Origin: Bradyrhizobium sp. LLZ17
GTDB taxonomy: Bacteria; Pseudomonadota; Alphaproteobacteria; Rhizobiales; Xanthobacteraceae
DNA length: 64,000 nucleotides
Reading direction: 5' to 3'
Assembly: GCF_041200145.1 (NCBI RefSeq)
Contig: NZ_CP165734.1
Span: forward strand, 6,553,001-6,617,000
Positions 55,717 through 64,000 of the stretch are shown in pieces. The position numbers and the translations under genes are program-made. Numbering within the stretch: the first letter of the stretch is position 1; the number at the start of each line of letters is the position of its first letter. The notes beneath the pieces are model-generated. The model saw nothing but the letters and a program-made list of their open reading frames with translations. It ran no database searches and was not told the origin of the DNA.

Positions 55717-58038
55717 ATGGATGATACGATTGGCTTTCCCGACCCTGGCCTCGATCTGTCGGACGGCTTCAAGCCGCATACCTCGCATTGGGGCGTGTTC
55801 TCGGCCCGCAACAGCGCGGCCGGGCTCGAGGTCCGGGCTTATGCGGGCGATCCCGATCCGAACGGCATCATCGACAATTTTCCCGGCGCCTTGCGCCACC
55901 AGGCGCGCATCGCTCAGCCCGCGATCCGCCGCGGCTGGCTCGAGCGCGGCCCCGGTCCTGACGATCGCCGCGGCCGCGACGAATACGTCTCCGTGAGCTG
56001 GGAGAAGGCGCTCGATCTGCTTGGCGACGAGCTGGCGCGCATCCGCGATACGCGCGGCCCCGGCGCTGTGTTCGGCGGCTCCTACGGCTGGTCGAGCGCA
56101 GGACGCTTCCATCACGCGCAGAGCCAGGTGCATCGCTTTCTCAACATCGCGATGGGCGGTTATGTGCGGTCGGTGAACTCCTATTCCTCGGGCGCGTCCT
56201 CGGTGCTGCTGCCGCAGATCCTGGCGGGCTACGAAGACATCACCAAGCGCAACGTCACCTGGGAGCAGATCGCGACCGAGACCGAAATCGTGCTCGCGTT
56301 CGGCGGCATGGCGCTGAAGAATTCGATGGTCGCCGGCGGCTCGATCAGCAAGCATGTCGAGCGTGGCGCGATGGCAGCGGCGCGCAAACGCGGCTGCGAG
56401 TTCATCCTGGTGAGCCCGCTGCGAGACGATCTTCCGGCGGAAGCCGGCGCCGAATGGATGACATGCATTCCCGGCACCGACACGGCGCTGATGCTCGGCA
56501 TCGTCCACACGCTTGTCACTGAGGCCCTCCACGACCAGGCCTTCCTCGATCGCTACACCGAAGGCTGGCCGGTGTTTTTGCGTTATCTCACCGGTGAGGG
56601 CGATGGCCACGCCAAGGACGCCGCATGGGCCGCCGCGATCTGCGGCGTCAATGCGGACGCGATCCGCACGCTCGCGCGCCGGCTTGCCGGCAAGCGCGCG
56701 CTCATCACCGTCTCGCATTCGCTGCAGCGCGCCGAACATGGCGAGCAGCCGGTGTGGATGGGCATGGTGCTGGCGGCAGCGCTCGGCCAGATCGGCCTTC
56801 CCGGCGGCGGCTACGCCTATTCGTTGGGGGCGATCGGCTATTACGGCCGCCGCGTCAACGACGTCCCCGGGCCGACGCTAGGGCAGGGCCGCAACGCCGT
56901 CCGCGATTTCATTCCGGTGGCGCGCATCGCCGACATGCTGCTCAATCCCGGCAGCACCTACCGCTACAATGGCGAGACGCGCACCTATCCGGACATTCGC
57001 CTGGTCTATTGGGCCGGCGGAAATCCGTTCCATCACCACCAGGACATCAACCGCTTGCGCAAGGCGTTCGCGAAGGTGGACACGCTGGTCGTGCACGAGC
57101 TGGCCTGGACCGCGACGGCGCGGCACGCCGACATCGTGCTGCCCTCGACCATGACGCTCGAGCGCGAGGACATCGGCTATTCCAGCAACGATCCGCTAAT
57201 GGTCGCGATGCACCGCATCGCCGAGCCGTTTGGGCTGGCGCGCGATGATTACGACATCTTTGCCGATCTCGCCGATCGTCTCGGCGCCCGCGAGCCCCTC
57301 ACCGAAGGCCGCACGTCGAGAGAATGGCTGCAACATCTCTATGAGCCGACCCGCGCTTCGCTCGCGGGGCGCGGCCTTGAGGCTCCGAGCTTCGATGAAT
57401 TCTGGCAACGCGGCAGCCTCGTGGTGCCGCAACAGCCTGACGACGGCGGGCGGCTGCGCTCTTTCCGCGATGATCCCATCGCCCATCCGCTGCCGACGCC
57501 GAGCGGACGCATCGAGATCTTTTCGACGAAGATCGCGGCGCATAACGATGCCGATTGTCCGGGCCATCCGGTCTGGCTCGACAAGAGCGATGTGCCGAAG
57601 CCGGACGCGCCGTGCTTCCTCGTCGCCAACCAGCCGGTGACGCGCCTGCACAGCCAGCTCGATTTCGGCGGGCATTCGCTCGCGGCAAAGCACCGCGGCC
57701 GCGAGGTCGCGCGCATGAACCCGCGCGATGCCGAGGTTCGCGGCATCAAGCATGGCGACATTATCCGCCTGTTCAACCAACGCGGCGCCTGCCTTGCCGC
57801 GGTGAACGTCACCGACGCCATTGCGCCAGGCGTGGTGCAGCTTCCCACCGGTGCCTGGTACGATCCGATGGATCCCGAGGACGAGGCGCCGCTCTGCGTT
57901 CACGGCAATCCCAACGTGCTCACCCGCGACATCGGCACATCGTCCTTCGCGCAAGGCTGCACCGGCCAGCTCACGACCGTGGAGGTGGAGAAGTTCACCG
58001 GCAATCTGCCGCCGATCCGGGCTTTCGATCCGGTGTAG
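55717..58038 (+). CDS. bisC: BisC-type molybdopterin oxidoreductase
   Basis: 773 residues. SYGWSSAGRFHHAQ (about 122-135) is the serine-ligand motif of the DMSO/TMAO/biotin sulfoxide reductase group; no Fe-S cysteines and no Tat signal, as in cytoplasmic BisC. Mo-bis-MGD contacts include GGNPFHHHQDINRL and LPSTMTLEREDIGYSSND. C-terminal NQPVTRLHSQLDFGGHSLAA is typical. It reduces biotin sulfoxide or related S/N-oxides, perhaps methionine sulfoxide. GAGG lies eight bases upstream. Confidence 0.85.
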   Translation: MDDTIGFPDPGLDLSDGFKPHTSHWGVFSARNSAAGLEVRAYAGDPDPNGIIDNFPGALRHQARIAQPAIRRGWLERGPGPDDRRGRDEYVSVSWEKALDLLGDELARIRDTRGPGAVFGGSYGWSSAGRFHHAQSQVHRFLNIAMGGYVRSVNSYSSGASSVLLPQILAGYEDITKRNVTWEQIATETEIVLAFGGMALKNSMVAGGSISKHVERGAMAAARKRGCEFILVSPLRDDLPAEAGAEWMTCIPGTDTALMLGIVHTLVTEALHDQAFLDRYTEGWPVFLRYLTGEGDGHAKDAAWAAAICGVNADAIRTLARRLAGKRALITVSHSLQRAEHGEQPVWMGMVLAAALGQIGLPGGGYAYSLGAIGYYGRRVNDVPGPTLGQGRNAVRDFIPVARIADMLLNPGSTYRYNGETRTYPDIRLVYWAGGNPFHHHQDINRLRKAFAKVDTLVVHELAWTATARHADIVLPSTMTLEREDIGYSSNDPLMVAMHRIAEPFGLARDDYDIFADLADRLGAREPLTEGRTSREWLQHLYEPTRASLAGRGLEAPSFDEFWQRGSLVVPQQPDDGGRLRSFRDDPIAHPLPTPSGRIEIFSTKIAAHNDADCPGHPVWLDKSDVPKPDAPCFLVANQPVTRLHSQLDFGGHSLAAKHRGREVARMNPRDAEVRGIKHGDIIRLFNQRGACLAAVNVTDAIAPGVVQLPTGAWYDPMDPEDEAPLCVHGNPNVLTRDIGTSSFAQGCTGQLTTVEVEKFTGNLPPIRAFDPV

Positions 58039-58129: not shown

Positions 58130-58708
58130 CTATCGCTGCGCGCCGGCGAGGGCGACCGCGGCCTCCACTGCATTCTCCAAAATCTCGTCGGATAATTGTC
58201 TGTCGTCGACCGCACGTGCCAGTTGCAGCGCGCCGACCATCGTCGCGTAGATCGTGATCGCCTTGCGCCGTCGGTCACGGGCCGAACCCGATGGAATCTG
58301 CTCTGCCATCAGCGCGATGACGTCGGACATCTTCGTGGTGAAGGCGTTACGCGTCGCCTTCGGATGTCGCGCGATTTCGGCGGCGAGCGCAGCGGTTGGG
58401 CAACCGGTTCCCGCGTTGTCGCGGTGTCGCGTCGAGAGGTACTCACGGATGGTGGTTTCGATCGCGACACCGTCTTCGAGATTGGCCTTATGCCGCTCTT
58501 CGCGCCGGGTGAGCGCTTCGGTCAGCACCTCGCGCACCAGATCCTCCTTGGAGGCGAAGTGCGTGTAGAAGGCGCCATTGGTCAGCCCTGCCGCCGACAT
58601 GATGCCCGCGAGGCCGACCGCGGCGATGCCGCTCTCGCGGAACTGCGCGGAGGCGACATCGAGAATGTGCCGGCGCGTGTCGTCCTTGCGTCCCTTGTCG
58701 TAGCGCAT
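58130..58708 (-). CDS. TetR-family repressor
   Basis: 192 residues; ATG 58706-58708 with AGGAGGG upstream. HTH: ILDVASAQFRESGIAAVGLA, GIMSAAGLTNGAFYTHFASK EDL. The C-terminal ligand domain carries GCPTAALAAEIARHPKATRN, of the TetR_C group often tied to efflux genes. It is divergent from a MATE gene; a 47-base palindrome between them is the likely operator for both. Confidence 0.92.
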   Translation of the reverse strand: MRYDKGRKDDTRRHILDVASAQFRESGIAAVGLAGIMSAAGLTNGAFYTHFASKEDLVREVLTEALTRREERHKANLEDGVAIETTIREYLSTRHRDNAGTGCPTAALAAEIARHPKATRNAFTTKMSDVIALMAEQIPSGSARDRRRKAITIYATMVGALQLARAVDDRQLSDEILENAVEAAVALAGAQR

Positions 58709-58770
58709 CCGTCCGGACCCCTCCTGCGGCACGGGTTGAGCCCGCGGCCACGGGATCGTGAGCGACTTGT

Positions 58771-58817
58771 CTATTGCATTACGGTCATAATAATGAATTA
58801 TGATCGTAATGCAATAG
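58771..58817. promoter_or_regulatory. Operator-like palindrome between tetR and MATE genes
   Basis: Left arm CTATTGCATTACGGTCATAAT and right arm ATTATGATCGTAATGCAATA-G are inverted copies over 21 bases with one mismatch, around a five-base centre. AT-rich arms also contain -10-like elements, so a bound TetR dimer pair would shut both promoters. Confidence 0.85.
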
Positions 58818-58862
58818 CGCCCTGAGGGGCGGCAGCTTTCGGGAATAACAGGATCGTAACGC

Positions 58863-60329
58863 ATGTCAGTCGAGGACGTCGCTGCATCGCCATTGTCCGT
58901 CGCGCAGCCCCTCGCGCGCGCGGCAGCTCCGGTTCGGTCCGCCACGCCGGCGGCTCAAGGCCCAAGCGACCGGACGCGCGCCGCGCTGCTGACGGCGCCG
59001 ATCCTGCCGACGCTGCTCAAGCTGGCGCTGCCGACAGTGACCGTCCTGGTGGCGCAGACCGCGGTCAACATCGCGGAAGCCTATTATGTCGGCTATCTCG
59101 GCACGGATGCGCTGGCCGGTGCCGCACTGGTGTTCCCGATCTTCATGCTGATGGCGATGATGTCGAATGGCGGGTTCGGCAGTGGCGTCGCCTCGTCGGT
59201 GGCGCGCGCGATCGGCGCCGGCCGCCGCGAGGATGCGGAGGCGGCACTGTTCCACGCCGTCGTGCTGGCGATCATCGCGGGCGGGCTCTTTACGCTGGGG
59301 GCAGTGCTCGGTGGCCCGGCGCTTTTCCGCACCCTCGGCGGCCGTGGCGGGGCGCTCAGCGCCGCCATCACCTATTCCAACTATCTGTTCGCCGGTGCGA
59401 TTCCGGTCTGGATCGTCAATCTCCAGGCGGCCGCATTGCGGGGCTCCGGCAACGTCAAGGTGCCCGCGCTGGTGACCCTGATCGGGGCGATTGTGACCAT
59501 CCCGGTCTCGCCGCTTTTGATTTTCGGCTATGGGCCGGTCCCAAGCCTCGGCATCGGCGGCGCCGGCATCGCCTTCGGCCTCTATTACGGCGCGGCGATG
59601 CTGTTCCTGCTGCGCTACATGTCCACGGGAGCGTCCGGCCTGACGCTGCGCATCGTGCGGTTGCGTGCGAGAGTTTTCGCCGACATGCTGAAGGTCGGCA
59701 TCCCCACCGCGCTCAACGCGGTGCTGAGCAATCTCACCGTCATTCTCGTCACCGGCGCGGTCGGCCTGTTTGGGACCTCAGCGCTTGCAGGTTACGGCAT
59801 CGCCTCGCGGCTCGACTATATCATGATCCCGCTGCTGTTCGGCATCAGCACGGCGACGTTGACCATGGTCGGCGTCAACATGGGCGCAGGCCAAACGGCG
59901 CGTGCGCAAAAGATCGGTTGGGTCAGCGGCGTCGCCGGCATGATCATGACGGGCACGATCGGCCTCCTGGTCGCGATCTTCCCGACCGCCTGGCTCAATC
60001 TGTTCACCCACGACGCAGAGGTCGTGAACGAGGGCATGACGTACCTGCGCATCGTGGCACCGGCCTATGCCGCGCTCGGCTTTGGTTTCGTCACGTCCTT
60101 CGCCGCGCAGGGCACCGGCCGCGCAATGGGTCCGCTGGTTGGCGCGTTCGCGCGGGTCCTGATTGCGGCCGGCGGCGGCTGGATTGTGGTCGCGGGCTTT
60201 GGCGCGGGAATGACCGGCCTCGCCACCATGGTCACGCTGTCATTCGTTGCCTACGCCGGGATCTGCGTGATGATGATGCTGTCGCCATCGACCTGGCGCG
60301 CCGATCAACGCGCCTCGCGCGGGTCGTGA
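58863..60329 (+). CDS. MATE-family efflux transporter
   Basis: 488 residues, about 12 helices in two related halves. KLALPTVTVLVAQTAVNIAE and YYVGYLGTDALAGAALVFPI are the first-half MATE block; the second half repeats it as GIPTALNAVLSNLTVILVTG and TSALAGYGIASRLDYIMIPL. Exports cationic drugs by Na+ or H+ exchange. About 45 N-terminal residues are an Ala-rich cytoplasmic extension. Likely controlled by the divergent TetR protein. Confidence 0.93.
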   Translation: MSVEDVAASPLSVAQPLARAAAPVRSATPAAQGPSDRTRAALLTAPILPTLLKLALPTVTVLVAQTAVNIAEAYYVGYLGTDALAGAALVFPIFMLMAMMSNGGFGSGVASSVARAIGAGRREDAEAALFHAVVLAIIAGGLFTLGAVLGGPALFRTLGGRGGALSAAITYSNYLFAGAIPVWIVNLQAAALRGSGNVKVPALVTLIGAIVTIPVSPLLIFGYGPVPSLGIGGAGIAFGLYYGAAMLFLLRYMSTGASGLTLRIVRLRARVFADMLKVGIPTALNAVLSNLTVILVTGAVGLFGTSALAGYGIASRLDYIMIPLLFGISTATLTMVGVNMGAGQTARAQKIGWVSGVAGMIMTGTIGLLVAIFPTAWLNLFTHDAEVVNEGMTYLRIVAPAYAALGFGFVTSFAAQGTGRAMGPLVGAFARVLIAAGGGWIVVAGFGAGMTGLATMVTLSFVAYAGICVMMMLSPSTWRADQRASRGS

Positions 60330-60380
60330 TCCTGGACTTGTTTCCCATTTGACGGCCAACGGAGAAAGGTCGCCCGCCGC

Positions 60381-60441
60381 GGGCGACAAATAGGAACTTT
60401 CTTTTCATTGATTTCGCACTCCGGGCGGAGGAAGACGGTCC
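60381..60441 (+). promoter_or_regulatory. Leader repeat upstream of metQ-like gene, copy 1
   Basis: Aligns without gaps to 61339-61399 (offset 958): GGGC-ACAAAT, GAAC-TTC-TTTCATTGATTT CG, CCGGGC-G and GAAGAC-GTCCC are shared, about three bases in four. Both copies precede a gene start on the same strand. Probably a shared promoter or regulator site. Confidence 0.6.
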
Positions 60442-60474
60442 CAGTCGTTGTTACAGCTGCCACGGAGACCCAAG

Positions 60475-61257
60475 ATGTCGTTTCGTTCCGCCCTGATCCT
60501 CTCAACCGTGCTCGCCGCATGGTCGGCTGTAGCTTCAGCCGAGACCATCAAGATCGGCGTGACACCGGGGCCGCATGCGCAGATCCTGGAGGCTGTGAAG
60601 CCGGTCGCCGCCAAGCAGGGTCTCGATATCCAGCTCATCGAGTTTTCCGACTATGTGGTGCCGAACGCGGCACTCGATGCCGGCGATATCCAGGCCAATT
60701 CATTCCAGAACCAGCCCTATCTCGACAACCAGAAGGCTGACCGCGGCTACAAGATCGAGTCCGTCGGCCTGACGGTGAATTTTCCGATCGGCGTCTACTC
60801 GAAGAAGCACAAAGCTTTCGCCGACATTCCCGACGGCGGCAAGGTCTCGATCCCCAACGACCCGACCAATGGTGGCCGCGTGCTGCTGCTCCTGCGCGAC
60901 AAGGGCGTGATCAAGCTGAAGGACGGTGTCGGCTTCAAGCCGACGGTGCTGGACATCAGCGAGAATCCCAAGAAGCTGAAGTTCATCGAGGTCGACGCCG
61001 CGCAGGCGCCGCGCGCGCTCGATGACGTCGATGCCGCCGCGATCAATACCAACTATGCGACGCAGGCCGGACTCGATCCCGTGAAGGACCCGATCCTGCG
61101 CGAGGATCCGAAGGGCCCCTATGTCAATTTGATCGCGGTGCGCACCGCGGACAAGGACAAGCCCTGGGTCAAGATCCTGGTCGACAGCTATCACACGCCC
61201 GAGGTGAAGGAGTTCGTCCTGACCAAGTTCAAGGGCGCGGTGCTGCCAAGCTGGTAG
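60475..61257 (+). CDS. MetQ/NlpA-family ABC binding protein without lipobox
   Basis: 260 residues. Signal peptide MSFRSALILSTVLAAWSAVASA has no Cys after it, so this is a free periplasmic protein, unlike the lipoprotein MetQ. Core: TIKIGVTPGPHAQILEAVKP, ALDAGDIQANSFQNQPYLDN, VSIPNDPTNGGRVLLLLRDK and AAINTNYATQAGLDP are all standard. Binds methionine or a related sulfur compound. No permease or ATPase follows directly; a luciferase-like monooxygenase does. Confidence 0.9.
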   Translation: MSFRSALILSTVLAAWSAVASAETIKIGVTPGPHAQILEAVKPVAAKQGLDIQLIEFSDYVVPNAALDAGDIQANSFQNQPYLDNQKADRGYKIESVGLTVNFPIGVYSKKHKAFADIPDGGKVSIPNDPTNGGRVLLLLRDKGVIKLKDGVGFKPTVLDISENPKKLKFIEVDAAQAPRALDDVDAAAINTNYATQAGLDPVKDPILREDPKGPYVNLIAVRTADKDKPWVKILVDSYHTPEVKEFVLTKFKGAVLPSW

Positions 61258-61649
61258 GGCGGGACACGCGCGTCGGCGGGGCGGGTTGCACGAGATCGGA
61301 TGCCGCTTGACCGTGGGCGTAGAAACGTTGTCTGCCCAGGGCTACAAATTTGAACGTTCATTTCATTGATTTCGTCCGCCGGGCAGGAGAAGACCGTCCC
61401 GTTCGGCCGCGGCCGCGAGCAGCAAGATCGGTGTTAGATTGTGATCGAAGGTTATGACACGCGCAAGATGAGGAAGTTCGCTCTGGCCAGCTTCAACGCG
61501 CGATCGCGCCCCGTTGGTAGGCAGATGGCCTGCCGTCCTCCGATGCAACGAGCCCGGGGACGTGGCAGCCTTGCGCATTGGCCGCTTGTCTCGGGCTGCG
61601 GCAACCGACATCATCTGGGCCGTGGCAATATCCGCCCGGCAGGGGTCGT
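61258..61649. other. Gap between the MetQ-like and monooxygenase genes
   Basis: 392 bases. It holds the second leader repeat (61339-61399). The frames that cross it are not convincing; the distance from leader to start (about 250 bases) is much longer than for the MetQ-like gene (about 35 bases), so a long 5' leader or an insertion is likely. Confidence 0.5.
61339..61399 (+). promoter_or_regulatory. Leader repeat upstream of the LLM monooxygenase gene, copy 2
   Basis: Second copy of the leader seen at 60381-60441, with TTTCATTGATTTCG fully conserved. Suggests the two transcription units answer to one signal. Confidence 0.6.
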
Positions 61650-62684
61650 ATGAAACGCTTTGCAAAATTGAAAAGACTGGGGTTCTTCACGCGGCTGCTC
61701 GACGAGGCGCCGCCGGCCGAGCGCTATCGCTTTGCGGCCGAGCAGATCGTGCGTGCCGAGAAGGCGGGCCTGGATTCGGCGTGGATCGCCCAGCATCATT
61801 TTCACGAGCGCGAAGGCGGACTGCCGTCGCCCTTCACGTTCCTCGGCTATGTCGCCGCGCAAACCTCGCGCATCCGCCTCGGCACCGGCATCGTTACCCT
61901 GCCGTTGGAAAGTGCGGTGCGTGTGGCGGAAGACGCCGCGGTCCTCGATCTGCTTTGTGATGGCCGGTTCGAGCTCGGCGTCGGCACCGGCGGCAACCCG
62001 TCCGCTTTCGCGGCCTTCGGCCTCGACAGCGCCCAGCGCAACGAGATCTTTGCGCGCAATCTGGAGGTCGTGCGGACCGCGCTTGCCGGTAAGCCGCTCA
62101 CCGGCGGCGACACGCTCTATCCGCAGCGGCCGCAACTGGACGGCCGGATCTGGCAGGCGACGTTCTCGGTGGCGGGCGGTGCGCGTGCCGGCAAGGCCGG
62201 CGACGGCCTGCTGCTGTCGCGCACCCAGCCGCGGACCAAGGATGCGCCGAATGCCACGCTCGCCGACATCCAAAACCCGGTCATCGATGCTTATCTGGCA
62301 GCGCTGCCGCCGGGCCGCGAGCCCCGCATCATGGCCTCGCGCACCATCTTTGTTGCCGACGACCGCCGCGAGGCGATGCGGCTCGCGGACCTTGGATTGC
62401 GGCGTGCGCTGCCGCAGTTCATGAAGAGCGGTCACCTTGCTCCGGGCGAGACGCTGGAGGAGATGATCACGGCCTTCGACACCCATGTCGGAGCGGCCGA
62501 TGATGTCATCGCCTCACTGCGTGCCGACGCGACCTTGGAGCGGGTGACCGATCTGGTCTTCCAGGCCCACTCGGTCGATCCGCCGCATCCCTATATCCTG
62601 CGCTCGATCGAATTGGTCGCGGACAAGGTCGCGCCGGCGCTGGGCTGGACCAGGACGGCGTCCGATGTGGCGCTCGCGGGCTAG
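61650..62684 (+). CDS. FMN-dependent luciferase-like monooxygenase (KPN_01858-type)
   Basis: 344 residues from ATG 61650 with AGGGG just upstream. LGFFTRLLDEAPPAERYRFA, SAWIAQHHFHEREGGLPSPF, IRLGTGIVTLPLESAVRVAE and RFELGVGTGGNPSAFAAFGL give the bacterial luciferase TIM barrel. Its place before a CMD gene and an AhpD-type gene matches the gene set known in TIGRFAM as LLM_KPN_01858, CMD_Avi_7170 and perox_Avi_7169 (assignment from memory). Substrate unknown, probably an organosulfur or related compound. Confidence 0.85.
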   Translation: MKRFAKLKRLGFFTRLLDEAPPAERYRFAAEQIVRAEKAGLDSAWIAQHHFHEREGGLPSPFTFLGYVAAQTSRIRLGTGIVTLPLESAVRVAEDAAVLDLLCDGRFELGVGTGGNPSAFAAFGLDSAQRNEIFARNLEVVRTALAGKPLTGGDTLYPQRPQLDGRIWQATFSVAGGARAGKAGDGLLLSRTQPRTKDAPNATLADIQNPVIDAYLAALPPGREPRIMASRTIFVADDRREAMRLADLGLRRALPQFMKSGHLAPGETLEEMITAFDTHVGAADDVIASLRADATLERVTDLVFQAHSVDPPHPYILRSIELVADKVAPALGWTRTASDVALAG

Positions 62685-62717
62685 TCGGGATTCCACGGAA
62701 TTGGTTGAGGCTGAAAT

Positions 62718-63335
62718 ATGAGTACCAAGGATATCATCGACACGCTCGCCGGGATCGAACCGGGCTCGAGCCTGGATGCCATCCGGGCGAAACGCGTGCA
62801 GGCGCGCGACAATGCGCAGAAGAGCTATCTCGCTCTGTTCGAGCCGATTGACGCCGGCGACTTCTCGCACGCGGAACGCGCGGTGGTTGCGCTCTTCGTC
62901 GCGGGTCTTCATGGCGAATCGCCGGTGACCGCCTTCTATCGGGCGAAGCTTGCGGCGAGCGCGAATGGCGCGGCTCTGGTCGAGGCGATCGAGGCCGAGA
63001 TCGCGCATGGCAAGACGTCTGGACCATACGGCGCCTATCCGGCCGGACCTTTGTCGGCGGAGGACACGACCGGCTTGAACTATCGCGTGAGGGCAGAGCG
63101 CAGGCCGTTGCTTGGCGCAAGGCTCGTCGCGGCGCTCGAACATGCGCATCTCCTGGTGTTCCGGCCGCGCGACGCGGCATCGGCGGATATGAAGGCGCTG
63201 CTTGCCGCCGGCTGGTCGAACAGCGGCATCGTCACACTGTCCCAGCTCGTCGCGTTCCTGTCGTTTCAGGTGCGGGTCGTCAGCGGTTTGCGCACGCTTG
63301 CCGCGGCCAATGCGTATGAGAAGGCTGCATCATGA
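62718..63335 (+). CDS. CMD-domain protein (Avi_7170-type)
   Basis: 205 residues. DIIDTLAGIEPGSSLDAIRA at the start and FSHAERAVVALFVAGLHGES for the CMD helix pair; a second half, PRDAASADMKALLAAGWSNS GIVTLSQLVAFLSFQ, is also CMD-like. The CxxC pair of active peroxidatic members is absent, so it may be a partner of the next protein, whose start overlaps its stop by four bases. Confidence 0.85.
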   Translation: MSTKDIIDTLAGIEPGSSLDAIRAKRVQARDNAQKSYLALFEPIDAGDFSHAERAVVALFVAGLHGESPVTAFYRAKLAASANGAALVEAIEAEIAHGKTSGPYGAYPAGPLSAEDTTGLNYRVRAERRPLLGARLVAALEHAHLLVFRPRDAASADMKALLAAGWSNSGIVTLSQLVAFLSFQVRVVSGLRTLAAANAYEKAAS

Positions 63336-63907
63336 GCACCATCAATCCGCCCGTCGTCTTCACCCAGGACGAACTTGGCTGGGTGTCCTGGATCGACCCG
63401 CTGCCTGAGGCTGAGCTGACTGAGCGGCATTTCGCCGGCCTGGTCGATCGATCCCGTGCCAAATCGGAATATTTCCGGCTGCTCGTGCGTGATCCCGAGG
63501 TGCTGGAAGCCCGCACCAAGACCGACAAGGACATCTTCTACAACGTCGCCGACGGCCTGCCGCGCGCCGAGCGCGAGCTCGCGGCGGCCGCGACCTCGCG
63601 CTACAATGGCTGCATCTACTGCGCCTCGGTGCATGCGCGATTTGCCAGTACCTATTCCAAGCGCCGCGACGACGTGCAACGCTTGCTCGACGAAGGCGTT
63701 GGTGCCGATCTCGGCGAACGCTGGAACGCCGTCGTCAAGGCCTCGGTTGCGCTGGCCTCGACGCCGATCGCGTTCGGCCCCGACAACATCGAGGAATTGC
63801 GCCGCATTGGCCTCGACGATGCCGAGATCGTCGACGTCATCAACAGCGCGTCGTTCTTCAACTGGGCGAACAGATTGATGCTGTCGCTCGGTGAGCCGAC
63901 AAAATAG
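63332..63907 (+). CDS. Alkylhydroperoxidase-domain protein (Avi_7169-type)
   Basis: 191 residues. The AhpD motif is complete: CIYCASVHA with Cys94, Cys97 and His101; RELAAAATSRYNG precedes it and FNWANRLMLSLGEPTK closes. Such proteins reduce peroxides with a thiol pair. Coupled to the CMD gene by an ATGA overlap, so the two may form one complex that protects against peroxide released by the monooxygenase. Confidence 0.88.
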   Translation: MSTINPPVVFTQDELGWVSWIDPLPEAELTERHFAGLVDRSRAKSEYFRLLVRDPEVLEARTKTDKDIFYNVADGLPRAERELAAAATSRYNGCIYCASVHARFASTYSKRRDDVQRLLDEGVGADLGERWNAVVKASVALASTPIAFGPDNIEELRRIGLDDAEIVDVINSASFFNWANRLMLSLGEPTK

Positions 63908-63968
63908 GCATCTTCGCTGGCACAGAAATTGTCGCTTGTTTTCACCACCAAAGTAGATGGAGCCGTGC

Positions 63969-64000
63969 ATGAGCAACATCAATCGCCGAACCCTGATCAA
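63969..64000 (+). CDS. Start of a Tat-exported protein, probably an ABC binding protein
   Basis: Only MSNINRRTLI is visible before the window ends. GGAG lies nine bases upstream of ATG 63969. The RR followed by hydrophobic residues suggests a Tat signal. In related gene sets the next gene encodes a peptide-type binding protein (KPN_01854 family), so that is my guess. Confidence 0.45.
   Translation, partial: MSNINRRTLI

Follow-up and report, generated by a model that had tools for sequence, protein, structure and literature searches.

Gene content of the locus

We analysed a window of 64,000 nucleotides (nt) from Bradyrhizobium sp. LLZ17 (assembly GCF_041200145.1, contig NZ_CP165734.1, positions 6,553,001 to 6,617,000 of the forward strand), focusing on a gene run at its right end that comprises a MetQ-like solute-binding protein (SBP), a luciferase-like monooxygenase (LLM) dependent on flavin mononucleotide (FMN), a CMD-domain protein, an AhpD-type protein and an importer. 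An earlier note, made from the sequence alone, had grouped these genes into one system. The features of the run, in window numbering, are as follows.

60349 to 60447, forward strand: leader of metQ, copy 1 of a 99-nt repeat, with core TTCATTGATTTC (repeat comparison)
60475 to 61257, forward strand: MetQ-like SBP, secreted, without cysteine (PF03180, TIGR00363)
61307 to 61521, forward strand: remnant of a second tandem metQ, with leader, weak trace of the mature start and C-terminal codons (colinear blastn)
61650 to 62684, forward strand: FMN-dependent LLM (TIGR04027; solved homologue 8K74)
62718 to 63335, forward strand: CMD-domain protein, cysteine-free (TIGR04029; predicted AhpD/CMD fold)
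63332 to 63907, forward strand: AhpD-type protein with CxxCxxxH (TIGR04030; ATGA overlap with the CMD stop)
63957 to 65126 (63957 to 64000 in the window), forward strand: HAAT-type SBP, continuing beyond the window
65178 to 67001, beyond the window: LivH-LivM fusion, 607 residues
67001 to 67852, beyond the window: LivG
67849 to 68589, beyond the window: LivF

The run is not finished at the right edge of the window, and the SBP gene ends outside it. Genes to the right of 64000 were read in locus L002, whose positions plus 59499 give window numbering. The SBP starts at 63957 or 63969 and carries at its N-terminus NRRTLIK, which we take to be a Tat-like signal; the exported protein whose start had been recognised at the window edge is thus a HAAT-type binder. 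Permease and ATPase genes, for which the earlier note had proposed a look right of 64000, are present, but they are of the Liv/HAAT type and not the usual partners of MetQ. Their Liv models name the nearest type only, as all scores lay below the cut-offs (score/cut-off in bits: SBP 140/477, LivH 186.4/379, LivM 175.3/366, LivG 248.6/362, LivF 220.8/441), so the substrate is not fixed by the models. Two ATGA couplings had also been proposed. The sole true stop/start overlap inside the window is that of CMD and AhpD at 63332; the CMD start reads ATGA but lies 33 nt past the LLM gene, and the ATGA of the SBP start lies 49 or 61 nt past the AhpD gene. A second true overlap joins LivG and LivF outside the window.

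Conservation of the trio and exchange of its importer

The codon-model open reading frame (ORF) caller still missed genes, and gene counts were therefore taken from tblastn. Among 60 relatives (36 of the genus), the TIGR04027 cut-off was exceeded in 17 genomes including the genome itself, all of the genus. LLM, CMD, AhpD and SBP were contiguous in 16 of these, with a full-length metQ before them in 15; metQ is reduced to a 29-residue piece in G009, and in G012 (L026/L055) the LLM stands alone of the cluster beside a Dpp-type importer. A survey of named loci kept the best 80 of 562 matches and hence describes the genus, not all bacteria: 77 were titled Bradyrhizobium, with one Bradyrhizobiaceae and one Hyphomicrobiales metagenome-assembled genome and one record labelled Frankia. 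In these 80 loci the seven-gene core was complete in 72, the trio of LLM, CMD and AhpD in 75, and metQ was full-length in 69; four of the eight loci lacking the full core are pieces shorter than 9 kb. The record titled Frankia sp. RB7 (L152) has the Bradyrhizobium gene order and 91% LLM identity and is probably mislabelled.

In a phylum-wide sample of 398 genomes, the cut-offs were exceeded by LLM in 16, by the AhpD-type protein in 15 and by CMD in 19. Each of the 15 genomes with AhpD also belongs to the 16 with LLM and to the 19 with CMD, and the genes there span about 3 kb or less. The expected co-occurrence of the trio was thus borne out: both partners adjoin the LLM in 15 of 16 genomes (Fisher 2.7e-26, kinship ignored), a value that overstates independence because 7 of the 16 belong to this genus. 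One genome (G373) has the LLM without partners, and four (G305, G384, G394, G444) have CMD without this LLM.

The LLM was also found in 123 records of a plasmid collection, from which 18 loci of other genera were hand-picked, including two near-identical Rhizobium tumorigenes records. An AhpD match lies beside the LLM in all 18 and CMD was matched separately in 16; CMD and AhpD are annotated as one protein in L233, L242 and L243. A TIGR04028-like binder is encoded about 5 kb upstream in 15 of the 18, one of them an actinomycete. L227 has only a distant TIGR04028-like binder (25% identity), and L228 and L235 have none. No match to the Liv binder or to MetQ was obtained in the 18 loci at E 1e-15. 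The Bradyrhizobium locus is not so arranged: MetQ and a MATE efflux gene lie upstream and the Liv/HAAT importer downstream. Bradyrhizobium thus has a variant of the TIGR04027/28/29/30 set of NCBIfam (named after Klebsiella KPN_01858/KPN_01854 and Avi_7169/7170) in which the importer has been exchanged. The variant agrees with that set in the families of its monooxygenase, CMD and AhpD proteins and in their gene order, and differs in having a Liv/HAAT importer with a LivH-LivM fusion plus MetQ instead of the TIGR04028 type, and in keeping CMD and AhpD as separate genes, which are fused in Pantoea, Erwinia and similar loci.

A secreted MetQ with an altered thioether pocket

The MetQ-like protein, whose likely start is the ATG at 60475, scored 302.7 bits with PF03180 (cut-off 27) and 271.5 bits with TIGR00363 (cut-off 228.85), while the PRK11063 MetQ model gave 270.9 bits and its cut-off of 374 was not reached. 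It has no cysteine at all and hence no lipobox, in agreement with its earlier description as a free binder. No other protein of the genome was found to match PF03180. In Neisseria MetQ, R156, N213 and N238 hold the amino-acid end of methionine, and Y81, F98, H100 and Y103 hold the thioether, according to the passages available of PMC6739813. By motif and spacing, the corresponding pocket here consists of Y60, F77, N79, Y82, R135, N191 and N218, which keeps six of the seven Neisseria contact residues. Among distinct MetQ pocket fragments of the loci, position 79 was Asn in 53, all of the cluster type, and His in 12: 11 other MetQ proteins, that of E. coli among them, and a single one of the cluster type (L161). 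Of the 120 nearest listed of 7396 database proteins, 96 have Asn at this residue and 23 have His; one was unread. The exchange of Asn for His suggests a modified side-chain preference. In a tree of 46 MetQ proteins, the cluster MetQ falls within a clade of 23 (support 0.95), which includes MetQ proteins adjoining metN or metNI in L213-L216.

A metNI pair lies at 1.24 Mb, 2.43 Mb from the cluster round the circle, with no MetQ there. Its MetN-like ATPase matched the model along its full length with 369.7 bits, short of the 499.7 cut-off, and the adjacent MetI has 54% identity to E. coli MetI. A sodium:sulfate-symporter-family gene and an HAD-type gene lie on either side of the pair; the former (L200 4638-5549, upstream of the orphan metNI) matched PF00939 with 272 bits, and similar-looking ORFs occupy that place in several relatives.

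Across 44 genomes of the genus, PF03180 was found in 28 and MetI in 26, and every MetI genome was among the 28 (26/28 with MetQ vs 0/16 without; Fisher 3.7e-10, kinship ignored). One of the 26, G025, has in L213 a MetI match of 112 residues with an internal stop, between MetN-like and MetQ ORFs. MetI was commoner in genomes with the cluster (17/21) than in those without (9/23; Fisher 0.0065, G012 counted as lacking the cluster). Nine genomes (G000, G013, G018, G027, G034, G167, G215, G421 and G439) have MetI but no PF03180 protein other than the cluster MetQ. G009 and G391 retain only a piece of the cluster metQ, and neither PF03180 nor MetI was found in them. A different MetQ type adjoins metNI in six cluster genomes (G005, G008, G014, G021, G026, G029). 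Because MetI presence follows MetQ presence, the cluster MetQ probably feeds the distant MetNI in trans. Compared with the known MetNI-MetQ transporter, the MetQ family, six of seven Neisseria methionine contacts and a MetNI pair in the genome are shared; the differences are that MetQ is here encoded 2.43 Mb from MetNI, has no cysteine and carries Asn79 at the seventh contact, a His in Neisseria.

The monooxygenase and its published homologue

The LLM exceeded TIGR04027 with 554 bits (cut-off 412.9) and likely starts at the ATG at 61650, not at the TTG at 61578. Its nearest solved structure is 8K74 (392 bits), a Klebsiella sp. PCX protein (PCX02514) that has been described as a monooxygenase acting on poly(acrylic acid) with NADPH (PMC11354265). 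The earlier statement that no reaction had been assigned to this family is therefore outdated, though the turnover reported in the passages available is very slow: on poly(acrylic acid), kcat was 0.00214 per second and the stoichiometry from isothermal titration calorimetry (ITC) 0.034 (PMC11354265), values that suggest a side activity. Four of the five proposed site residues of PCX02514 are kept (R10, R125, S186 and R187, equivalent to R15, R130, S190 and R191), and the fifth, H253, aligns with Phe. R15, R130, S190 and R191 are invariant across ten aligned members of the LLM family, and these Arg and Ser residues could be flavin-phosphate contacts. PCX02514 is thus a close homologue with a polymer as claimed substrate, and the passages of PMC11354265 give no genomic context. 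Searched by blastn with the LLM gene, E. coli genomes gave no match, and the open-licence literature yielded nothing on the function of the TIGR04027/29/30 gene set beyond PMC11354265. Klebsiella KPN_01858 is listed together with TauC among the proteins more abundant under iron limitation in the part of PMC7194016 available, which we count in favour of a link to sulfur.

The CMD and AhpD partner proteins

All three family models named in the earlier note (LLM_KPN_01858, CMD_Avi_7170 and perox_Avi_7169) were exceeded. The CMD protein scored 235 bits with TIGR04029 (cut-off 100.75), contains no cysteine and is predicted by its structure model to adopt the AhpD/CMD fold, with matches viewed with VIA-align; this predicted fold, shared with AhpD, reveals no function. 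The AhpD-type protein scored 309.2 bits with TIGR04030 (cut-off 233.15; motif ERELAAAATSRYNGCIYCASVH) and 171.7 bits with TIGR01926 (cut-off 81.8), and has the CxxCxxxH motif NGCIYCASVH, so that the pair indeed consists of one CMD-fold protein with the dithiol motif and one without. The two are fused into one protein in L096, L097, L098 and L100-L103. The fusions of L096, L097 and L100-L103 have 365-378 residues, and their genomes resemble Pantoea and Erwinia records. A mixed CMD/AhpD alignment, in which CMD halves fell onto AhpD halves, was left out of the conservation analysis.

We also compared 12 loci that have the CMD/AhpD pair without the LLM. A protein resembling an FAD/NAD(P) monooxygenase directly adjoins the pair in eight of them (L093, L094, L098, L099, L106-L109). 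In L095 such a protein lies about 7 kb off and a BAAT-like gene adjoins the pair, and in L110 (9479-12785, another genome of the class) a molybdopterin oxidoreductase does so; no FAD/NAD(P) or molybdopterin protein was seen beside the pair in L104 and L105. Four of the FAD proteins were scanned and matched no NCBIfam model at the limits used, so the term 'monooxygenase-like' rests on their Pfam domains.

AhpD-family proteins are annotated as antioxidants. We tentatively suggest, as a rather doubtful generalisation, that CMD and AhpD are a general redox partner of flavin monooxygenases, as two proteins or fused, and deal with a reactive intermediate, either sulfur or peroxide. The CMD protein, having no cysteine, would be a non-catalytic subunit that shapes the dithiol site of AhpD so that it works as a sulfenate reductase. 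The pair would have been plugged into different monooxygenases (TIGR04027 LLM, FAD/NAD(P)) and importers (TIGR04028, Liv, amino-acid type), as a sulfur-salvage core repeatedly re-equipped, and in Bradyrhizobium it would have taken over the sole MetQ, which serves MetNI in trans. In sulfur-starved P. aeruginosa, organosulfur and oxidative-stress genes rise together (PMC12581299); a search of that source for the words AhpD, carboxymuconolactone and peroxidase found none of them.

Sulfur-linked neighbourhoods

Several loci carrying MetQ of the cluster clade encode organosulfur enzymes. NtaA/DmoA-family monooxygenases were found in L207, L215, L216 and L217 (TIGR03860, 529-536 bits, cut-off 279.7), an alkanesulfonate monooxygenase in L213 (TIGR03565, 640.4 bits, cut-off 518.2), and O-acetylhomoserine sulfhydrylases in L207, L213, L214 and L216. 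At its edge, L216 also encodes a partial SfnB-like protein. Genome G015 has MetNI and MetQ types other than that of the cluster, which it lacks; it also has a similar island, encoding a TauD-family protein, three TIGR03860 proteins and an SfnB-like protein whose 298 bits fall short of the 430.9 cut-off. As a side observation, L204-L207 and L213-L218 are organosulfur islands of related genomes that combine several NlpA/MetQ paralogues with metNI, O-acetylhomoserine sulfhydrylase and monooxygenases of the NtaA/DmoA family or of the alkanesulfonate type; some of these islands also hold an FAD flavoprotein (FAD_binding_2, Succ_DH_flav_C; AprA-like by eye) beside a small ferredoxin-like ORF.

Outside the genus, sulfur-linked neighbours lie within 9 kb of the trio in five of the 14 annotated plasmid loci, two of them from one species. 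These neighbours are a CysB-family regulator in a Variovorax plasmid locus, taurine ABC genes in that of Agrobacterium vitis, and sulfonate ABC genes in those of Rhizobium sp. NXC24 and in both Rhizobium tumorigenes records. In L102 and in two Pantoea records the trio is followed by an amidohydrolase gene, which is what a deacylation or deacetylation step would need.

The LLM superfamily includes SsuD, MsuD, DszA, YxeK and CmoJ. These flavoenzymes cleave C-S bonds (PMC10863075). In the B. subtilis salvage of S-alkylcysteine and N-acetyl-S-(2-succino)cysteine by CmoO/CmoJ and YxeK, flavin monooxygenases likewise break C-S bonds of amino-acid thioethers, and the pathway includes a deacetylation step (PMC10863075), for which the amidohydrolase in Pantoea and L102 offers a parallel. 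The likeness has its limits, as CmoJ is a homologue of YxeK and DszA and not of the TIGR04027 family, the substrate there is acetylated first whereas no acetyltransferase was seen beside the trio here, and the abstract and opening of PMC10863075 mention no CMD/AhpD partner.

Proposed function and alternative explanations

From these gene neighbourhoods we infer a role of the cluster in sulfur metabolism, and we regard the locus, with somewhat more confidence than doubt, as an organosulfur-scavenging module. On the best-supported reading, the cell would import an organosulfur compound resembling methionine and oxidise it in a flavin-dependent reaction. The sequence places the TIGR04027 monooxygenase with CMD and an AhpD dithiol protein, and joins the Bradyrhizobium trio to MetQ and to a Liv/HAAT importer in place of the TIGR04028 importer. 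From there, MetQ would bind a methionine-like compound and pass it to the distant MetNI, and the HAAT importer would take up the same or a related compound. A reductase encoded elsewhere would supply reduced FMN, with which the LLM would oxygenate the compound and break its C-S bond. The AhpD dithiol may remove peroxide leaked by the flavin or reduce the sulfenate product, and the cysteine-free CMD may be the structural partner of AhpD.

Several observations weigh against this proposal. Within the gene run itself we identified no sulfur-specific gene and no regulator, and the cluster genes include no flavin reductase (the rest of the genome was not searched for one). The earlier idea that an imported organosulfur compound is oxidised finds support in the neighbourhoods, but nine of the 14 annotated plasmid loci have no sulfur-linked neighbour, some lying by one-carbon, fatty-acid or siderophore genes. 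Four further genomes of the phylum-wide sample (G115, G202, G400, G401) hold sub-cut-off relatives of the LLM (223-255 bits) and have no partners over the cut-off. On the uptake side, the His of the thioether pocket (H100 in Neisseria) is replaced by Asn79, and two genomes, G011 (99% complete) and G016 (89%), have MetQ without MetI; at its completeness, G011 is a real exception to the pairing. The cluster MetQ also has no Cys for lipidation, and in Neisseria it is the lipidated MetQ that stimulates MetNI, the secreted form having little effect (PMC8416018, in the passages available).

The published assay assigns the LLM homologue to poly(acrylic acid), and the LLM might accordingly oxidise compounds rich in carboxylate groups, be they oligomers resembling poly(acrylic acid) or a different polyanionic carbon source, and not sulfur compounds, with the importers bringing acids or amino acids. 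The closeness of PCX02514, its reported activity and the four shared site residues speak for this explanation. We consider it quite unlikely, however, since the low kcat and ITC stoichiometry point to a side activity, H253 is Phe here, and the four residues are invariant in the ten members as flavin-phosphate contacts would also be. A synthetic polymer, moreover, fails to explain the wide conservation and leaves MetQ and the sulfur neighbourhoods unaccounted for.

A functional separation of metQ from the monooxygenase module deserves more weight, although we still hold it to be unlikely. Here metQ would be a relocated methionine uptake gene that lies upstream by chance, and the LLM module would act on a nitrogen or carbon compound through the Liv-type system. 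In keeping with this, some clusters with the core intact (G009, G391, L139, L181) have no metQ or only a reduced one. In addition, metQ has its own conserved leader and is separated from LLM by a median of 137 nt, a wider spacing than that of the genes running from LLM to LivF (medians -1 to 57 nt); the trio also stands without a MetQ match in the 18 loci of other genera. Yet full-length metQ lies upstream in 69 of the best 80 of 562 loci, and the sulfur neighbourhoods of the trio in other genera are independent of MetQ. Very improbable, in our judgement, is a detoxification module in which LLM and CMD/AhpD, together with the upstream MATE pump, destroy a toxic xenobiotic or alkylated thiol. 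The MATE gene, the TetR-like ORF and the antioxidant annotation of AhpD would suit it, but MATE is near only 36 of the 72 core loci, and a core with two importers and no efflux gene points to uptake.

The organosulfur proposal matters beyond this genome, as the TIGR04027/29/30 set spans rhizobia, enterobacteria, beta-proteobacteria and one actinomycete under provisional names, with one published activity that is very slow. The Bradyrhizobium variant offers a handle on the substrate, being tied to a sole MetQ whose presence MetNI follows. It yields a testable claim: a methionine-like substrate, MetQ acting at a distance, and a role of CMD/AhpD for flavin monooxygenases.

Leader repeat and a decayed metQ copy

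The 99-nt leader is repeated at 60349-60447 and 61307-61405 with 74% identity. Copy 2 is followed by 23 nt like the start of mature MetQ (83%) and then by 87 nt like the last metQ codons (70%), with colinear blastn E values of 4e-16 for the leader, 4e-10 for the C-terminus and 0.02 (weak) for the mature start; about 700 bp of metQ are gone, in two gaps. This order marks the second leader as the footprint of a tandem metQ duplication that was mostly deleted. The metQ-LLM distance is 392 nt here and 350 nt in L119 (Bradyrhizobium sp. LTSP849), which has a differently decayed metQ piece in the gap; it is 124-160 nt in 10 of the 11 relatives compared.

The leader core TTCATTGATTTC lies upstream of metQ in 10 of 11 aligned relatives, and the eleventh (L123) has TTTATTGATTTC. 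Given its conservation ahead of metQ across genomes, the core may have a function for that gene. The 13-mer TTCATTGATTTCG has two exact copies in the genome, both at this locus, and four more with one mismatch. When one mismatch was allowed, TTTCATTGATTTC was confined in 16 scanned loci to sites ahead of cluster-type metQ (L002, L003, L212, L217); three matches had two mismatches (L204, L206, L207). We therefore rejected the 13-mer as a sulfur regulon motif and took it as a metQ leader, not a regulon box. The shared leader of the earlier note is thus a real repeat, but it is mainly the trace of a duplication and does not indicate shared control of metQ and the enzymes.

Flanking genes

The genes on either side of the run are as follows.

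55717 to 58038, forward strand: molybdopterin S/N-oxide reductase (TIGR00509 bisC family, 901.5 bits; cut-off 1017.55 not reached)
58130 to 58945, reverse strand: TetR-like regulator ORF, upstream of metQ and divergent from MATE
58863 to 60329, forward strand: MATE efflux gene, upstream of metQ
68641 to 69762, beyond the window: NiCoT nickel/cobalt transporter

The molybdopterin S/N-oxide reductase is near just 10 of the 72 core loci and was not taken as part of the module; it is left as a lead. NiCoT starts, by its ORF, 51 nt past LivF. It too was rejected as a module part and treated as a flank, being near only 44 of the 72 core loci and on the opposite side in two records (L171, L187). The listed starts of the TetR-like ORF and the MATE gene overlap, and one of the two is probably too long.

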